From NCBI RefSeq assembly GCF_015707995.1, contig NZ_JAAGRY010000002.1:1-64000 (forward strand): DNA of 64,000 nucleotides, given 5' to 3'. Source of the stretch: Microbacterium paulum (GTDB taxonomy: Bacteria; Actinomycetota; Actinomycetes; Actinomycetales; Microbacteriaceae). Position numbers and translations under genes: made by a program. The number at the start of each line of letters is the position of its first letter. Position 1 is the stretch's first letter. Positions 3,217 through 41,246 of this stretch are shown piece after piece. Below the pieces are notes generated by a model. The model was not told the DNA's origin. It was given only the letters and a program-made list of their open reading frames with translations, and did no database searches.

Positions 3217-3600
3217 GTGATCGAAGAAGGAAAGGCGCTGTTCCTGCAGATCGCCGAGAACGTCGAAGACTCCATCCTCGACGGCAGCCTCGCCGACGAC
3301 GCGCGGGCGCCCTCGACGAACGAACTCGCCGCCTTTTACCGCATCAACCCCGCCACCGCCGCGAAAGGAGTGAACGTGCTCGTCGAAAGAGGCATCCTCG
3401 TCAAACGCCGCGGCATCGGCATGTTCGTCGCTCCCGGCGCCCGCGCGCAGCTGATCGCAGAGCGTCGCGGGGCCTTCGCCGACCGCTACATCGACCCGCT
3501 CCTGGCCGAGGCCTCCGCTCTCGGCCTCGACGCCGACGACCTGGCCCAGCTTCTGCGGGAGCGGGCCGCCGCACACCGTACCGAAGGGAACCGCCCATGA
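3217..3600 (+). CDS. GntR-family regulator, YtrA-like
   Basis: The 127-residue protein has an N-terminal winged HTH (residues 5-75, with PSTNELAAFYRINPATAAKGVNVLVERGIL) and only a short helical tail, the size of the YtrA subfamily. The start chosen is GTG 3217, just after a purine-rich GGCGGA and 28 bases downstream of a palindromic operator; longer readings upstream run through that operator. Its last codons overlap the ATPase start (ATGA at 3597), so it leads a three-gene operon. By family precedent it represses this ABC transporter until a cell-envelope stress or antibiotic signal arrives; the signal is not visible here. Confidence 0.85.
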   Translation: MIEEGKALFLQIAENVEDSILDGSLADDARAPSTNELAAFYRINPATAAKGVNVLVERGILVKRRGIGMFVAPGARAQLIAERRGAFADRYIDPLLAEASALGLDADDLAQLLRERAAAHRTEGNRP

Positions 3601-4493
3601 CCGTCATCGAGGTGCAGCACCTCACCAAGCGCTACAAGGAGACCCTCGCCCTCGACGACGTGTCTCTCGCCTTCGAGGAGAACACGATCTACGGCCTTCT
3701 CGGCCGCAACGGCGCCGGCAAGACGACACTCATGTCGATCCTCACCGCGCAGAACTTCGCCACGTCGGGCACGGCGCGCGTGTTCGGCGCGGACCCGTAT
3801 GAGAACGCCGGCGTGCTCCAGCGCATCTGCTTCGTGCGGGAGAGCCAGAAGTACCCCGAGGACGCCCTCCCGACGCACGCGTTCCGCATGGCGAGCCTGT
3901 TCTTCCCGAACTGGGATCAGGGCTTCGCCGACGAACTCGTCGCGGCGTTCGAGCTGCCGCTGAAGACCCGCGTCAAGAAGCTCTCCCGCGGGCAGCTCTC
4001 GGCGGTGGGCGTCATCATCGGGCTCGCCTCGCGGGCCGAGATCACGTTCTTCGACGAGCCGTACCTCGGGCTTGACGCCGTCGCGCGCCAGCTCTTCTAC
4101 GACCGGCTGATCGAGGACTACGCGGAGCACCCGCGCACCGTCATCCTCTCCAGTCACCTGATCGACGAGGTGTCGAACCTCATCGAGCGGGTCGTCGTCA
4201 TCGACGGCGGTCGCATCCTCCTCGACGAGGAGACCGACGCGGTGCGCTCGCGCGCCGCCACGATCGTCGGCGACGCGGCGGCCGTCGAGGCGTTCGCCGC
4301 CGGCCGCGAGGTCATCCACCGCGAGAGCCTCGGACACGTCACGAGCGTCACGGTGCTCGGCGAGCTCACCGCCGCGGATCGGGCCGCCCTCCAGGCATCC
4401 GGGCTCGACCTCGCGCCCGTGTCACTGCAACAGCTGATCGTCCGCCTCACCCAGCATGCCGCGCGGGGCGCGGCGGAAGGAGCACTCCGATGA
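3597..4493 (+). CDS. ABC transporter ATP-binding protein
   Basis: The 298-residue ATPase has Walker A GRNGAGKTT (residues 36-44), a signature LSRGQ near residue 130, Walker B ITFFDEP, and the H-loop ILSSH. The C-terminal 80 residues form a family-specific tail. It overlaps the regulator before it and the permease after it by 4 bases each, so the three are translationally coupled. Such YtrA-controlled ATPases energize small exporters implicated in resistance to wall-active peptides or in export of an unknown substrate. No substrate can be read from the sequence. Confidence 0.85.
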   Translation: MTVIEVQHLTKRYKETLALDDVSLAFEENTIYGLLGRNGAGKTTLMSILTAQNFATSGTARVFGADPYENAGVLQRICFVRESQKYPEDALPTHAFRMASLFFPNWDQGFADELVAAFELPLKTRVKKLSRGQLSAVGVIIGLASRAEITFFDEPYLGLDAVARQLFYDRLIEDYAEHPRTVILSSHLIDEVSNLIERVVVIDGGRILLDEETDAVRSRAATIVGDAAAVEAFAAGREVIHRESLGHVTSVTVLGELTAADRAALQASGLDLAPVSLQQLIVRLTQHAARGAAEGALR

Positions 4494-5185
4494 GCCGCAC
4501 CCTGAACGTCGTGCGCATGCAGCTGGCGAACCGCGAGACCTACCTGTGGGTGCCGCTGCTGATCCTCGGCAGCTCGTTCGTGATCTCGCTGATCATCTGG
4601 GCGACCCTGGCCGCCGGCGGTGTCACGACAAACATGTACGGCGGGGGCGCGCAGGCGCCGCTGTGGTACTTCGTCGCTGTCGGGGTGCAGGCGCTGACCC
4701 TGACCTTCCCGTTCTCTCAGGCGCTGAGCGTCACCCGCCGCGAGTTCTTCGTCGGCACCATGCTGACGGCGGCGCTGACGTCGGGTGTTCTCGCGCTGAT
4801 CTTCGTCATCGGGGGTCTGATCGAACTCGCCACCGGCGGCTGGGGCATGGGCGGCTACTTCTTCGCGCTCGATTGGCTGTGGGCCGGCGGCGCGTTCATG
4901 GCGGGCGTGTTCTTCTTCACGCTGACGATGATGGTGTTCACCCTCGGCTTCTGGGCGGCGACGATCTACAAGCGGTGGGGTTCGTTCCGGCTCACGCTCG
5001 CCCTCGTTGCGATCGCGCTCGTGCTGCTCGGCGTGATCTGGACGATCACCGTGACGCGCTCGTGGGGTCCGGTGATGGGTGCCATCGTGCAGGCAGGGGT
5101 GTGGGGGCTGACCGGAGCCCTCGCCATCCTCGTGGTGGTCTTCGCCAGCACGGCGGGCCTGGTGCTGCGGCGCACGACCGTCTGA
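4490..5185 (+). CDS. ABC transporter permease, six-helix type
   Basis: The 231-residue protein is almost entirely hydrophobic, with about six membrane segments (for example residues 20-42, 60-80, 90-115, 125-150, 165-190, 200-222). It starts ATGAGC inside the end of the ATPase gene, and no other permease is near, so it is the membrane partner of that ATPase, probably as a dimer. A YLWVPLLILGSSF block follows the first amphipathic stretch. Substrate unknown. Confidence 0.8.
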   Translation: MSRTLNVVRMQLANRETYLWVPLLILGSSFVISLIIWATLAAGGVTTNMYGGGAQAPLWYFVAVGVQALTLTFPFSQALSVTRREFFVGTMLTAALTSGVLALIFVIGGLIELATGGWGMGGYFFALDWLWAGGAFMAGVFFFTLTMMVFTLGFWAATIYKRWGSFRLTLALVAIALVLLGVIWTITVTRSWGPVMGAIVQAGVWGLTGALAILVVVFASTAGLVLRRTTV

Positions 5186-5260
5186 GACGCCCGGGCGCGG
5201 CCGACTCGAGCGGTCCGTGGTGCTCCAGCGCCGCGGGCCGCCTCCCCTAGAGTGTGAGCC

Positions 5261-6409
5261 ATGAGCGAACCGCGTGACTCGACGTCTCCCGAGGCCTCCG
5301 CCGAACCGGCGCCCGACGCGACGACCGTCGCGCTCGAGAACGCCACACCGGGGCGCACGATTTGGGCGAACCTCAACCACCCGTTCGTGATCGGCTTCTT
5401 CTTGACCTTCGGCGGGCTGGTCGCGTTCGCGCTCGGCATGGCGATCACGAGCCTCGTCACCATCTGGATCTACATCGCGTTCGCGATGTTCGCCGCCCTC
5501 GGCCTCGACCCGCTCGTGCGGCGCCTGCAAGCGCGCGGCATGCAGCGGGCGTGGGCGATCACGATCGTCTACTTCGTGTTCGCCCTCGTGCTCATCGCCG
5601 TCGTCTGGCTGATCGTGCCGACGGTGATCTCGCAGATCGCCCAGTTCATCCGCGATGTGCCCGGGATGATCACCGCCTTCCAGCACTCCGACCTCTTTGC
5701 GTGGCTCGTCGTGCAGTTCGGCGACCAGATGCCCGACCTTCTGGCCGAGCTGCAGAAGTTCCTCACCAACCCGAACAACGTCGCCGCGATCGGCGGCGGG
5801 GTGCTCTCGATCGGCTTGAGCATCGGCACGACCATCTCGGGCATCATCATCATCATCGTGCTGAGCCTGTACTTCCTCGCGTCGCTGCCCGAGATCAAGC
5901 AGGCGTTCTACCGGCTGTGGCCCGCGCGTCTGCGGGCGACGACCACCGAGATCACCGAGCAGATCACGGCATCGGTCGGCGGATACCTGGGCGGCATGGT
6001 GATCCTGGCGTTCTTCAACGCGCTCGTCGCGTTCCTGCTGTATCTGTTCCTGGGCCTGCCGTTCCCCGCTCTGATGGCGGTTGTGGCGTTCTCGGTCACC
6101 CTCATCCCGCTCGTCGGTAGCGTGCTGTTCTGGGCGGTCGGCACGGTCGTCGCCCTCATCGCCAGCCCGATCGGCGGCCTGACCTTCGCCATCGCGTACC
6201 TCGTCTACATGCAGATCGAGGCATACGTTCTGACTCCGAAGGTCATGAACAAGGCGATCTCGGTTCCCGGATCGCTCGTGGTCATCGGAGCGCTCGTCGG
6301 CGGCACGCTGATGGGGCTGCTCGGTGCGCTCGTCGCGATTCCCGTGACGGCGTCGATCCTGCTCATCATCAAGAAGGTCTACATCCCGAAGCAGGATGCC
6401 CAGGTCTGA
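5261..6409 (+). CDS. AI-2E family (PerM-like) membrane transporter
   Basis: The 382-residue protein has a polar N-terminal tail of about 45 residues, a pair of helices, an extracytoplasmic-looking amphipathic segment (about residues 120-170), and a run of C-terminal helices with the family blocks GGYLGGM and PLVGSVLFW, ending near KVYIPKQ. This is the AI-2E/PerM (UPF0118) architecture. Members have been linked to autoinducer export and to sodium/proton exchange, so the exact cargo is uncertain. It is monocistronic: its own start is at ATG 5261, and a palindromic terminator follows the stop. Confidence 0.85.
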   Translation: MSEPRDSTSPEASAEPAPDATTVALENATPGRTIWANLNHPFVIGFFLTFGGLVAFALGMAITSLVTIWIYIAFAMFAALGLDPLVRRLQARGMQRAWAITIVYFVFALVLIAVVWLIVPTVISQIAQFIRDVPGMITAFQHSDLFAWLVVQFGDQMPDLLAELQKFLTNPNNVAAIGGGVLSIGLSIGTTISGIIIIIVLSLYFLASLPEIKQAFYRLWPARLRATTTEITEQITASVGGYLGGMVILAFFNALVAFLLYLFLGLPFPALMAVVAFSVTLIPLVGSVLFWAVGTVVALIASPIGGLTFAIAYLVYMQIEAYVLTPKVMNKAISVPGSLVVIGALVGGTLMGLLGALVAIPVTASILLIIKKVYIPKQDAQV

Positions 6410-6444
6410 GCCCCACCCGGGCGCGGGGGCTCCCTCCCGCCCGT

Positions 6445-6500
6445 GAAACGCCATGCAGCGCGTCATACGGTCGCCCGTGTGACGCGCTGCATGCCGTTTC
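6445..6500. terminator. Long palindrome between convergent genes
   Basis: Two 21-base arms (6445-6465 and 6480-6500) pair with one mismatch around a 14-base loop. The arm contains CCATGCAGCGCG. It lies between the AI-2E gene and the lactonase gene, which converge, so it can act as a bidirectional terminator, although it has no U-tract. The same core occurs in the palindrome at 30232-30289. Confidence 0.6.
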
Positions 6501-6516
6501 GGCGAGCGGCGGGGGG

Positions 6517-7749
6517 CTACGGCGCGGCGACGAGGCAGGTCGGGCTCGGCACCTCGACGCGGCGGCGCACGCGACCGACGGCGCCGGTGCGCTCGTCGAG
6601 GCTGAGCGCCGCGACCTCGTTCGACAGCTGCCCGGCGACGAGCACGGTGTCGCGCTCGACGACGTGGTGACGCGGCCAGTCGACGCCCGAGTCGGCGAGC
6701 GCGACGGGCACGACGGCGGCCCCACCGTCACGCACCCGCAGGCTCGCGATCGTGTTGCTGCCGCGGATGCCGACCAGCGCATACTCGGCATCGCGTGTGA
6801 GCGCGATCTCGGCGGCGAAGTCGGAACCGGGCGACGCCTCGTCCGCGAGCGGCGAGGCCGAGATCACCCGCCAGCCTTCACCCGGGCGTGATCCGGGTTC
6901 GGGAGCGAGCACGAACACCTCGAGCGAGAGCTCGGTGACGACGTAGAGGTGTCCGCTCGGATGCCACACGGTGTGGCGGGGCCCGCAGCCGGGCGGCAGG
7001 GTGACCCGCTGCGTCTCGTGCAGGTCGCCGCCGCGCACCGTCCAGAACCGCACGAGGTCGAACCCGAGGTCGGTGGTGGCGATGACCCCACCGGGCAGAA
7101 AGCACGACTGGTGCGACCGAGACACGCGGGTCGGCTCCTCGGTCGCAATCTCGGTGGCGGCCTCGGATGCCTGGGCGCCTGCCGCGGCCTGCGCGTCGGC
7201 CCCGAACAGCGGAAGGTTTCCGATCGCCGCCGCGCCGACCATGCCCGCCAACGACGACAGGTCGGCCAGCGACGACAGGTCGGCCAGCGACGCAACGTCC
7301 GCCGCCCGCGCCTGCCGCGCCGCGTCGCTGTAGGGATCTTCGGCCCCGTCCGCGATTCGGGGTGCACCGAGCGCCCCGCGCGCGTCGAGTGCGAAGCGCA
7401 CGACGCGTCCGTCGCCGTAGCACGAGGCGATCACCGCGTCGCCGCTCGGGGCGACCGCGACGTGGCAGACGGAGTCACCGGCATCCACCGCACCCCCGAG
7501 CGGCGCGAAGGTCTCCTCACCCGTGCGGGTGAACGCCTGCACGGTGCCGGCGGCCTCTTGCGCGACGTACAGCACGTCGAGGGTCGGGTGCGCGGCGACC
7601 CACGAGGGCGAGTCGGTGCGGGCGGCGACGCCCGTGAAGGCGAGGTCGCCGCCGGCGAGCGCGCTGTCGGGCGCGCCCGCGTGCAGCACACCGATGCCCT
7701 CGGCCGACCCCCCGCCGTCGGCGGTGTAGCCGCCGACCCAGAAGCGCAT
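6517..7749 (-). CDS. Lactonase-family beta-propeller protein
   Basis: The 410-residue protein has the seven-bladed propeller pattern of the YbhE/6-phosphogluconolactonase-type lactonase family: MRFWVGGYT at the start, PSWVAAHP, CHVAVAP, then GCGPRHTVWHPSG(H)LYVVTEL and DWPRHHVV with the conserved His and Arg positions. Family members hydrolyse lactones, but many have untested substrates, so I do not assign 6-phosphogluconolactone firmly. ATG 7749 lies 8 bases after the purA stop, behind a GAGG motif, suggesting co-transcription with purA. A low-complexity insert near residue 155 contains a duplicated LADLSS unit. Confidence 0.75.
   Translation of the reverse strand: MRFWVGGYTADGGGSAEGIGVLHAGAPDSALAGGDLAFTGVAARTDSPSWVAAHPTLDVLYVAQEAAGTVQAFTRTGEETFAPLGGAVDAGDSVCHVAVAPSGDAVIASCYGDGRVVRFALDARGALGAPRIADGAEDPYSDAARQARAADVASLADLSSLADLSSLAGMVGAAAIGNLPLFGADAQAAAGAQASEAATEIATEEPTRVSRSHQSCFLPGGVIATTDLGFDLVRFWTVRGGDLHETQRVTLPPGCGPRHTVWHPSGHLYVVTELSLEVFVLAPEPGSRPGEGWRVISASPLADEASPGSDFAAEIALTRDAEYALVGIRGSNTIASLRVRDGGAAVVPVALADSGVDWPRHHVVERDTVLVAGQLSNEVAALSLDERTGAVGRVRRRVEVPSPTCLVAAP
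7252..7287. repeat. 18-base tandem repeat inside the lactonase gene
   Basis: Two perfect copies of CGACGACAGGTCGGCCAG lie head to tail, followed by a degenerate start of a third. On the minus strand they encode LADLSS twice, in a loop of the propeller. The multiple of three keeps the frame, so repeat number could vary without breaking the gene. Confidence 0.8.
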
Positions 7750-37901: not shown

Positions 37902-39134
37902 GTGACCGCCCCCTCCGCTCTCGATCGCGCCCGCCTCGTCCACTGGCGCACGGCGGTGTTCACCCTGTTCCTGCTGTGCGGCGTGACCTTCGCGTCGTGG
38001 GCGTCGCGGCTGCCGGCCGTGAAGCAGAACCTCGCGATCGACGACTTCGAGGTCGGCGTGCTGCTGTTCGCCATGGGCGCCGGTTCGCTCGCGGGCGTGA
38101 TGTCGGCGAACGTGATCGTGGCGCGCTGGGGCGCGAAGCGCGGCCTGTCGGTCACGGTGGTCGGCGTGGGGGCGGGACTGTTCATCGCCGCGCTCGGCGT
38201 CGACGCACTCGGCTCGTATCCCGTGGCGGTGGTGGGCCTCGCGCTGATGGGGCTGTGCTTCGGCGCGACCGACGTCATGATCAACGTCGAAGCGGCCTCG
38301 GTCGAGCAGGCGTTCGGCCGCACGCTCATGCCGCTCTTCCACGCCTTCTTCAGCCTGGGCACGGTCGCGGGCGCCGGCATCGGCGTCGCGGTCGTGGGGT
38401 GGGGCGTCGGGGTCACGTGGCACCTCGGGGTCGTTGCGCTCGTCTGGTTCGTCATCACCGGTTTCGCGCTGCAGTACCTGCCGACGAGCGAACGCGTCGC
38501 CGCAGAGGCGACGGGGACGGTGCCCTCGCGGCGCGAACGGATGCACGCCGCTCTCGCGGTGTGGCGCGATCCGCGCACCTACGCGATCGGCGCGATCATC
38601 CTCGGCATGGCGTTCGCCGAGGGCAGCGCCAACGACTGGCTCACGATCGCCGTCGTCGACGGACACGGCGAGTCCGAGGCGACCGGCGCGATCTTCCTCA
38701 CCGTCTTCTCGGTGTCGATGACGGTGTTCCGCGCGCTCGGCGGCCCGCTCGTCGACCGGATCGGGCGCGTGTGGACGCTCCGGGCGCTGTCGATCGCCGC
38801 GGCGCTCGGGCTCGTGGTCTTCATCCTCGCGCCGAACCTGCCGATCGCCTTCCTGGGCGTCGCGCTCTGGGGCGCGGGCGCCTCGCTCGGCTTCCCGCTC
38901 GGCATGTCGGCCGCGGCCGACGACCCGACCAAAGCCGCGGCATCCGTCTCGGCGGCCGCCACGATCGGTTACGTCGCCTTCTTGTGCGGCCCGCCCGTGC
39001 TCGGCTGGATCAGCCACCAGATCGGCATCCTGAACACCCTCTGGATCATCGTCGGCCTCATCGTCATGAGCGGGCTCGCCTCGGGCGCCGCGAAGCCGAT
39101 CGCCGGCTCGAAGGTCGGCGCCGGCCACCACTGA
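37902..39134 (+). CDS. MFS transporter
   Basis: The 410-residue protein has 12 predicted helices and the YbjJ/FucP-like start [23 protein letters not shown], with [20 protein letters not shown] in the fifth helix region. [14 protein letters not shown] and the second-half motif [15 protein letters not shown] are present. It is probably a proton-coupled sugar or metabolite transporter under the divergent LacI regulator. The start is GTG 37902. The last codons lie in a 21-base tandem duplication that extends past the stop. Confidence 0.82.
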
Positions 39135-39162
39135 GGCACGCCCGGCCACCACTGCGGCACGC
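39121..39162. repeat. 21-base tandem repeat across the MFS stop codon
   Basis: CCGGCCACCACTGAGGCACG and its near-identical follower are two 21-base units with one difference (A/C at the position that makes the first copy's TGA stop). The first copy contains the end of the MFS gene; the second is non-coding. Confidence 0.75.
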
Positions 39163-39258
39163 CCCGGCCTTCGCCGGCGCCGATGTGCGGGTCACCCGGA
39201 TGCGCACCCGCCATTCGGCGCCGCCGAACCGCGCGCCGGACCCACGTACACTCGACGG

Positions 39259-39411
39259 GTGCGCCTCATCATCGCCCGCTGTTCCGTCGACTATTCCGGG
39301 CGGTTGAACACCCACCTCCCCTTGGCGACGCGCCTGATCATGATCAAGGCCGACGGCACGGTGGCCTTCCACCGCGACGTGCAGCACGCGCCGCTCAACT
39401 GGATGAGCTGA
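39259..39411 (+). pseudogene. Partial nucS 5' end left upstream of nucS
   Basis: The 50-codon open frame from GTG 39259 encodes NucS residues 1-50 ([15 protein letters not shown] at the start, HAPLNWMS at the end) and then stops. It aligns with the first 150 bases of the intact nucS at 39788 with about 24 base differences by my count; all but one codon (Val/Ile) keep the same amino acid. The two copies are identical in the final 18 bases (CCGCTCAACTGGATGAGC), after which they diverge. It has its own -10 box (TACACT, 39247-39252) 6 bases before the start. No functional nuclease can result. Confidence 0.85.
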
Positions 39412-39435
39412 CTGCACACAGCCGTGCTTGCCCGA

Positions 39436-39708
39436 TTATTCGGCGAGGTACCCCGTCAAGGGGTCGATACCGGCCAAGAAACCTCGGATTGCGGTGACGT
39501 GACGTTCCTGCGGGACAGGCTCGAAGCCGCCGAACACGCTGAACCCGTAGCCATCGTTCGGCCCGGACACCCAGTCATAGTGAGTCGAACCGTCGTCGAC
39601 CACCCGTCGCCGCAGGACGAACGACTCGCCGTCGACGGTCAGCTCCCCGACGACGATCATCGGGTCGGCGTCGGGAGGCAGCGGGACGTACCGCCATACT
39701 TCGTCCAC
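39436..39708 (-). CDS. Small hypothetical protein between the two nucS 5' ends
   Basis: This 90-residue protein starts at GTG 39708 with no clear ribosome site. It is acidic and beta-rich, with [29 protein letters not shown] and [16 protein letters not shown] blocks, and no signal peptide or membrane segment. I do not recognise the family; its size and look are compatible with an immunity or accessory cargo protein, but this is only a guess. It is the only gene in the inserted segment, and codon choice there is less GC-biased than in the neighbouring genes. Confidence 0.5.
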
Positions 39709-39787
39709 CGGTTACTGCTGCTCCACACACTCCAACGTACATCCGACGGTTTCCCGATCACCCTCGATCACACGGGAAGATAGACAT

Positions 39788-40480
39788 GTGCGTCTCATCA
39801 TTGCCCGTTGCTCCGTTGACTACTCCGGTCGACTGAACACGCATCTTCCCCTCGCGACGCGTCTCATCATGATCAAGGCGGACGGCACGGTCGCGTTCCA
39901 CCGAGACATACAACACGCACCGCTCAACTGGATGAGCCCGCCCTGCACCCTCACGGTCGAGCAGCCCGACGACGAGTCCGCGTCTGCGGGAGTGGTCGAG
40001 CACTGGCGCGTGACGCACGCGAAGACGGGGGACGCCCTGCTCGTGCGCATCTACGAGGTGTTGCACGACTCGGCGCACGAGCTCGGGATGGACCCCGGCC
40101 TGCAGAAGGACGGCGTCGAAGCCGACCTGCAGCGCCTGCTCGCCGAGCAGGTCGACGTCATCGACCCGCGCGCGACACTCGTGCGGCGCGAGTTCCCGAC
40201 CGCCATCGGCCCGGTCGACCTGCTGCTTCGCAACCCCGCGGGCGGCACGATCGCCGTCGAGGTGAAGCGTCGCGGCGACATCGACGGCGTGGAACAGCTG
40301 ACGCGCTACCTCGAACTCCTCAACCGCGACCCGCACCTGGCGCCGGTCGCGGGCGTGTTCGCCGCCCAAGAGATCAAGCCGCAGGCGAAGGTGCTCGCCG
40401 GCGACCGTGGCATCCGGTGCGTCACCCTCGACTACGAGGGCATGAAGGGCACCGAGTCGGGTGCCCCGCGCCTGTTCTGA
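39788..40480 (+). CDS. nucS: Endonuclease NucS (EndoMS)
   Basis: The 230-residue enzyme cuts mismatched DNA and takes the place of MutS/MutL repair in Actinobacteria and some archaea. The N-terminal DNA-binding domain runs to about residue 105; the C-terminal RecB-like nuclease domain has [16 protein letters not shown] and IAVEVKRRG with the conserved Asp, Glu and Lys. GTG 39788 starts the gene. The first 150 bases use more A/T-ending codons than the remainder and differ from the upstream partial copy, so this gene looks like a mosaic with a foreign 5' end. Confidence 0.93.
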
Positions 40481-41189: not shown

Positions 41190-41205
41190 TCCGACCGCGC
41201 GGACG

Positions 41206-41246
41206 CAGAAGGCGCCGTGGTCCCGGGGACCACGGCGCCTTCTGCG
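41206..41246. terminator. Terminator between the HAD and cold-shock genes
   Basis: GCAGAAGGCGCCGTGGTCCC and its complement form a near-perfect 20-base stem with almost no loop, between two convergent genes. It can serve both strands. Confidence 0.75.

Follow-up and report, generated by a model that had tools for sequence, protein, structure and literature searches.

The window, a 64,000-nucleotide stretch of Microbacterium paulum DNA, carries nucS, the mismatch-specific endonuclease gene of Actinobacteria, between genes for an MFS transporter and a HAD-family hydrolase (HAD_2). The intact gene encodes a 230-residue protein in which both NucS/EndoMS domains were found by Pfam in a single full-length frame (NucS_N, 4.9e-25, residues 2-103; NucS_C, 1.4e-33, residues 110-229), which would make it a complete NucS. 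Two small repeats lie close by: two 21-bp tandem copies (95% identical) span the MFS stop codon beside the insertion locus (39121-39162), and a perfect 21-bp inverted repeat with 1 base between its arms, probably a transcription terminator, lies just 3' of the HAD-family gene (41204-41246). A sequence-only reading had proposed that the first 150 bases of nucS are present twice, and this was indeed the case, with one copy (39259-39408) ending in a stop and the other (39788-39937) opening the intact gene (Table 1). A repeat search paired 39254-39408 with 39783-39937 (155 nt, 83% identical, spacing 529). Where about 24 differences in 150 positions had been claimed, we counted exactly 24, the last at position 132, and the divergence is nearly all silent as stated, with the 50-codon translations differing at residue 41 alone (V or I). 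Aligning both copies further confirmed that their last 18 bases, CCGCTCAACTGGATGAGC, are identical where the stranded copy stops, with a TGA directly after its codon 50. Such a duplicated 150-bp coding start is far beyond chance, and an assembly artefact is unlikely as its source, since the same arrangement was found in three genomes assembled as one contig (G007, G021 and G136).

Table 1. Features of the nucS locus, in window coordinates.
Feature	Position	Strand	Remarks
MFS transporter gene, 5' neighbour of nucS	37902..39134	+	Pfam MFS_1 1.6e-30
TACACT, -10-like hexamer 6 bases 5' of the stranded GTG	39247..39252	+	putative leaderless type
Stranded nucS 5' end, codons 1-50 then TGA; taken as resident	39259..39411	+	GC3 0.96, neighbour-like
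Left junction block CCGCTCAACTGGATGAGC, exactly as at 39920-39937; crossover would lie within it or at its end	39391..39408	+	same position in other genomes
Putative inserted cassette of 529 bp, made up of a left end, the gene for 90 residues, a promoter and a new nucS 5' end	39409..39937	+	
Cargo gene for a 90-residue protein of an orphan family, with SGPNDGYGF invariant	39436..39708	-	
GAAGAT, cassette-borne -10-like hexamer, 6 bases 5' of GTG	39776..39781	+	
Replacement nucS 5' end, codons 1-50, cassette-borne	39788..39937	+	GC3 0.74
Resident rest of nucS, codon 51 to stop	39938..40480	+	GC3 0.94

With the first 50 NucS residues as the query, we searched two sets of genomes, 295 from the window's genus and 398 from its family (9 in both, hence 684 distinct genomes), and read the match tables by eye. 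This query also detects insertions past codon 50 and may miss those near the start codon. More than one nucS-start match was present in 14 of the 684 genomes (7/295 in the genus and 8/398 in the family, the window's genome counting in both), and for 12 of these 14 the copies were tandem, in the same orientation and on one contig within approximately 12.2 kb. The two outside this group were G096, whose second match is degraded and more than 100 kb away, and G132, with 21 codons at a contig end; within it, the upstream copies of G434 and G654 are badly degraded. At the level of the order we searched 396 genomes, 362 of them outside the family, with a different query (E <= 1e-5); a second match was found in 0 of these 362, five of which had no nucS-start match at all. 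It appears that similar pieces of DNA have used the same spot in nucS in related bacteria of several genera.

The boundary of the duplication is nearly constant. Ten genomes provided 12 stub/intact pairs, which were anchored by hand at the LNWMS codons and scored without the degraded copies in G377, G434, G654, G096, G097 and G507; in these pairs identity ends 0-7 bases past codon 50/51, in the context AACTGGATGAGC/CC. With full-length NucS as the query and short degraded matches left aside, 13 stub matches end at residues 50-63, 11 of them at 50-52 and the others at 56 and 63. The two copies differ until the last 18 bases in the window, 15 in G007 and 12 in G507, where the run shared at the junction is AACTGGATGAGCCCGCC only. 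The identical bases at the junction lie over CC only in G021 and reach only up to AGC in the window, so that the crossover was not at the same two bases everywhere, and later mutation or a spread of a few bases must be assumed. In 8 of the 12 pairs the stub reaches a stop no more than three codons past the site; base composition predicts a stop within four codons in 11% of cases, giving a probability of 7e-6 for 8/12 (a post hoc value, with pairs that are partly dependent), which suggests that the left ends of the cassettes close the reading frame of the stub.

Which of the two starts is native was addressed in five genomes with stubs by comparison with congeners, G361 being left out because no nucS start was matched in it, and two of the five gave a clear contrast. 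For G507, identity to three congeners was 91.5-92.8% in the stub, 88.0-89.3% in the body and 68.0-70.7% in the new start; for G602, compared with six congeners (including G484 and G568, which themselves have cassette-type right ends), the values were 87.6-98.0%, 89.8-95.4% and 64.7-75.0%, respectively. Because the congeners match both stub and body and the new start far less, stub and body are resident and the new start foreign in both genomes; stub and new start are 68-70% identical to each other in G507 and G602. For G432, G377 and G476, congeners did not set a native stub apart from a foreign new start. Identity between the two starts is 100% in G136 (153 bp plus 6) and 98.7% in G432, which requires a near-identical donor or gene conversion. 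Equal divergence along the whole of nucS, named beforehand as the pattern that speaks against a mosaic, was not seen in G507 or G602. As for G021 and G097, where codon 50 is CAG and TCG, respectively, these may carry whole foreign nucS genes. At locus L099 of G097, a stub, a complete diverged nucS, a BglII-type R-M pair and a second nucS body without a proper start follow each other (3348-6974), this further body lying 2.7 kb on, and this species may have swapped the whole of nucS instead of its 5' end alone. A decayed nucS-like start (48% over 29 residues) was also seen approximately 200 bp upstream of nucS in genome G150 (locus L124, 3935-4135), perhaps an ancient insertion.

In the window itself, the codon-usage breakpoint that had been suggested as a check was present: when GC3 is taken in steps of 50 codons, the first step of nucS gives 0.74 and those beyond codon 50 give 0.92-0.98, and it is 0.86-1.00 in both genes neighbouring nucS. 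The 379 bp between the copies have a GC content of 0.625, which 50 of 1273 segments of this size reach, versus 0.697 for the window. Among 20 genomes compared, the closest nucS body (90.6%) was that of G037, which has an empty site, with the MFS gene (89.5% identical protein) followed by approximately 240 bp and a single insert-free nucS; both window starts are 90.7% identical to its nucS start. Across the 20 genomes the new start was the closer one in 17 and the stranded one in 2, with one tie. An argument from affinity to element-type genomes had to be dropped, given that the new start is closer to 9/9 of them, yet also to 8/11 of the others; since the pattern is the same in genomes with and without signs of insertion, identity cannot name the resident copy of the window. 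In single comparisons, some starts resemble the new start significantly more than the corresponding bodies resemble each other, namely those of G054 (10/150 differences versus 101/540 in the body, Fisher p = 0.0002) and G507 (Fisher p = 0.0001; 13 genomes tested, uncorrected, in both cases), which fits a shared foreign origin. From GC3, the topology (the stub lies beside the MFS gene) and the parallel with G507 and G602, we infer that the stranded copy is the resident start. These data support the earlier proposal of a mosaic nucS, made when a foreign segment that brought the 90-residue gene and a nucS 5' end of its own recombined with the resident gene in the conserved block; its further claim that the native start was left behind agrees with GC3, topology and the two parallel genomes, while identity does not settle which window copy that is.

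In leaderless actinobacterial genes, promoters can lie directly against the start codon. Consistent with this arrangement, a NANNNT hexamer occupies positions -12 to -7, 6 bases before GTG or ATG, at 12/12 native and 16/16 cassette-borne or presumed cassette-borne starts, both hand-chosen sets; a third, overlapping set gave 16/20. As this promoter-like hexamer adjoins the start, a cassette would need only some tens of bases in addition to the 150 coding bases to restore nucS. The right end GCCGACCCCGTACTCTGG was found exactly at four places in 398 genomes, each 4 bases before a nucS start, in three genera. Allowing one mismatch gave 12 places in 11/398 genomes, of which five lie at nucS, the four exact ones and an inexact one in G377; the seven remaining inexact matches are probably due to chance, because a reversed control matched in four genomes. 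Two loci, L186 in G484 and L187 in G568, have a right end of the G377/G432 type before nucS, and no nucS stub is visible in either. They have in common the 33 bp directly before nucS (97%) and, at a greater distance upstream, a stretch of 715 bp (88%), and are probable insertions whose stub is gone. Shared cargo was considered for this pair and rejected, as the 0.5-0.75 kb upstream of the right end is not common to both. On the other side, the left end CTTAGGTGTGTATTTC follows the junction in two units of G377 and, with one change, in G432, and a looser likeness was seen in G507 (12/15 by hand count). Most other left ends, including that of the window, share no obvious sequence, so that either the site may have come to be used by several recombinases through convergence, or the ends may have decayed.

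The cargo is diverse, and units measure approximately 0.25-7.5 kb from start to start. A BglII-like restriction enzyme with an MT-A70-type methyltransferase is carried in G097, and an Mrr-type nuclease, a SIR2-like protein and an AAA ATPase (PADLOC candidate PDC-S06) in G602. G377 and G476 hold arrays, that is, successive nucS starts with cargo between them: an HNH protein with DUF1643 and then a PD-Lambda-5 A and B pair in the former, a type II methyltransferase with a restriction enzyme and then a PDC-S46 ATPase in the latter. The cargo of G136 (a GAF-domain protein and an LPO_1073-family protein) is not recognisably related to defence, and the unit of G021 consists of 401 bp without a clear gene. 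Among the ORFs scanned, PADLOC recognised defence cargo in 4/12 tandem genomes, for which we claim no enrichment; only two ORFs of G507 were scanned, and a weak FtsK-like PADLOC match there was not counted as defence. Loci L104 (G432) and L112 (G654), from two genera, have a similar gene after the stub that starts MKRIIQ.REV.ES (translated by eye), perhaps a toxin-antitoxin-like cassette common to both; an 84-residue ORF beside the small gene of G432 gave no family match.

As for the single gene in the window's cassette, nine loci of other Actinobacteria encode relatives of the 90-residue protein with 41-65% identity, from Microbacterium, Mycetocola, Nocardia, Aeromicrobium, Rhodococcus, Prescottella and Nocardioides, and on account of these the ORF is very probably a real gene. 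After removal of L008, whose frame contains a stop, and L010, whose frame is broken, from the nine relatives, an alignment of eight sequences has 20 invariant positions, including SGPNDGYGF. The protein matched no family in PADLOC (0 families, hence no known anti-phage defence gene there), NCBIfam or PHROGs, and its sole Pfam match was to SUKH-4 at 0.081, below the cut-off. It had matches in 3 of 72,556 plasmid records and none in the phage collection. The predicted fold has four strands and a helix (mean pLDDT 72.5, moderate confidence) and found no match in the PDB at E <= 0.001, the best being 0.8. When the nine relative loci were each compared with themselves at the nucleotide level, the one repeat found was of 58 bp, on one side of the gene in L009. 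As this comparison showed no duplicated gene start around the nine relatives, the gene looks like cargo, not machinery. Its location at a site that holds defence genes elsewhere is only a hint that it might have a role in defence.

Taken together, we propose that integrative cassettes use codon 50 of nucS as a chromosomal attachment site in the window's family (probably the Microbacteriaceae), a reading to which we assign a probability of roughly 0.77. A cassette would exist as a circle in which the left end and the cargo are followed by a short promoter of the leaderless type and by codons 1-50 of a nucS, and a recombinase would join it site-specifically to the conserved block AACTGGATGAGC/CC of the resident gene. 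The resident promoter and start would stay behind as a stub, usually stopping soon after, and the promoter and 50 codons of the cassette would be fused in frame to resident codon 51 onwards, so that a full NucS is still encoded. The window's cassette is either a remnant or a passenger moved in trans, because it measures 529 bp and has one orphan gene and no recombinase.

The best-surviving alternative, which we nevertheless consider improbable, is homologous integration of the Campbell type, in which the nucS fragment of the circle simply ends at codon 50, and the stub therefore ends there without any cut by a recombinase. The fixed left boundary would then follow from the structure of the element, the 18 identical bases at the end of the window copies would be accounted for, and the nearly identical copies in G136 and G432 are what homologous exchange would leave. 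Against this, differences between the copies persist until 12-18 bases from the end in the window as well as in G007 and G507, and the switch would have to fall within that remainder each time; moreover, the native stub and foreign new start of G507 and G602 are, at their level of mutual identity, poor substrates for RecA. Even less probable is a single ancestral stub locus that spread as a block by homologous recombination between the flanking genes and had its cargo replaced later. Related strains could inherit a stub in this way, and G484 and G568 have their 33-bp right end in common, but these two differ upstream of it, the stub is native to the host genus in G507 and G602, and the several starts present in G377 and in G476 are separated by differing cargo. 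Finally, a local tandem duplication of the nucS start with neutral divergence afterwards, which G136 and G432 taken alone would resemble, is contradicted for the diverged cases by the foreign new starts of G507 and G602, the GC3 jump in the window, the other genes between the copies and the unrelated sequence before the second start, and is the least probable of all.

Site-specific integration at codon 50 would call for an enzyme, and the best lead to it is in G507, where a truncated serine recombinase lies beside the nucS stub (locus L106, 3018-4258 of the reverse-complemented locus). Its frame starts 56 bp past the junction (Resolvase 3.9e-11; PHROG integrase 6.8e-19), homology stops after approximately 105 residues, and the match to the CcrB model (0.0023) is far below the cut-off; further on in the element lies an FtsK/SpoIIIE-like gene. 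It was the only recombinase, and a truncated one, among 20 cargo ORFs scanned with Pfam, and the window's cassette holds the 90-residue gene as its sole gene and no recombinase. Relatives of the N-terminus of the G507 protein (27-58% identity) were present in 9/18 other genomes, including the window's, and a nucS start upstream, sought at nine matched recombinase loci, was found only at G507. In four genomes of the genus of G507, a relative with 45% identity was found in G327. No complete nucS-targeting integrase was identified in these searches. We infer that G507 carries the decayed remains of a conjugative element whose large serine integrase acted at nucS, and the smaller units would then be derived from, or parasitic on, elements of this kind. 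A large serine integrase is our first choice for the enzyme that acts at nucS, with odds slightly short of even. The junction block of the window also contains a short dyad, GCTCA-ACTGGA-TGAGC, in view of which a tyrosine recombinase may be responsible. We also considered and rejected a phage origin: the first 50 NucS residues matched five phage records, of which three are 'Bacteriophage sp.' stool scaffolds with full-length nucS, probably host DNA, and the other two are one haloarchaeal virus, and two scans of viral_contigs, of a kind that finds close relatives only, returned no relative.

Insertion into the 5' part of a core gene has a precedent in the dusA islands. In these islands the integrase gene lies at the 5' end of dusA, the island supplies the 5' sequence of the gene, and excision joins the original 5' end to it again (PMC4482086, Nucleic Acids Res 2015). 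The nucS cassettes resemble these islands (PMC4482086) in using one conserved site in the 5' part of a core gene with varied cargo, and in that the 5' end is element-derived with the original left at the far side, here in G507 and G602. In contrast to those islands, which are described with a dusA-type integrase and excision (PMC4482086), the nucS cassettes are known from sequence, and they can form arrays. The truncated serine recombinase apart, no dusA-family integrase was found in the window's cassette or the 20 cargo ORFs scanned, and for this reason we do not file the nucS cassettes as dusA islands, even though they would work like them. The SCC/ECC cassette chromosomes at rlmH, which use large serine recombinases (PMC6222049, mSphere 2018), are likewise chromosomal cassettes at one core gene with variable cargo and known remnants, but their target is the 3' region of rlmH (PMC6222049), whereas that of the nucS cassettes is the 5' part of nucS. 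The ccr large serine recombinase genes of SCC are absent from the window's cassette, and a truncated serine recombinase was found in G507 only.

Other parallels are more partial. The serine recombinase and FtsK/SpoIIIE-type gene of G507 recall actinomycete integrative and conjugative elements, although a complete element of this type at nucS was not found in the genomes examined. Integron cassette arrays similarly consist of small cassettes in series at one place, some with defence genes, but each nucS unit, unlike an integron cassette, brings a promoter and a gene start. R-M systems inserted with long target duplication, as far as they are outlined in the reports, likewise place R-M cargo between two copies of the target; unlike there, the second copy is foreign in G507 and G602, and the boundary is nearly constant. 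By title and the beginning of the abstract, nothing relevant to nucS as an integration site came up in the open-licence literature.

A broader reading, which we regard as doubtful, would make nucS the platform of an actinobacterial cassette system with interchangeable units, each combining cargo, often for defence, with a promoter of the leaderless kind and with a 5' end of nucS that is itself the attachment site. Such units would be moved in trans by a recombinase from another locus and stack into arrays, and would at every insertion swap the promoter and the first fifty residues of NucS, so that immunity genes and mutation rate change in one step. If the attachment-site reading is correct, a gene of mutation avoidance would be a recurrent docking site for mobile cassettes, some of them with restriction-modification or other defence genes, and the nucS promoter and the N-terminal 50 residues would be replaced at insertion. 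The effect of such insertions on the level or activity of NucS, and hence on mutation and recombination rates, would become testable, as would the use of nucS junctions as a guide to new defence genes, among which the orphan 90-residue family may perhaps be counted.
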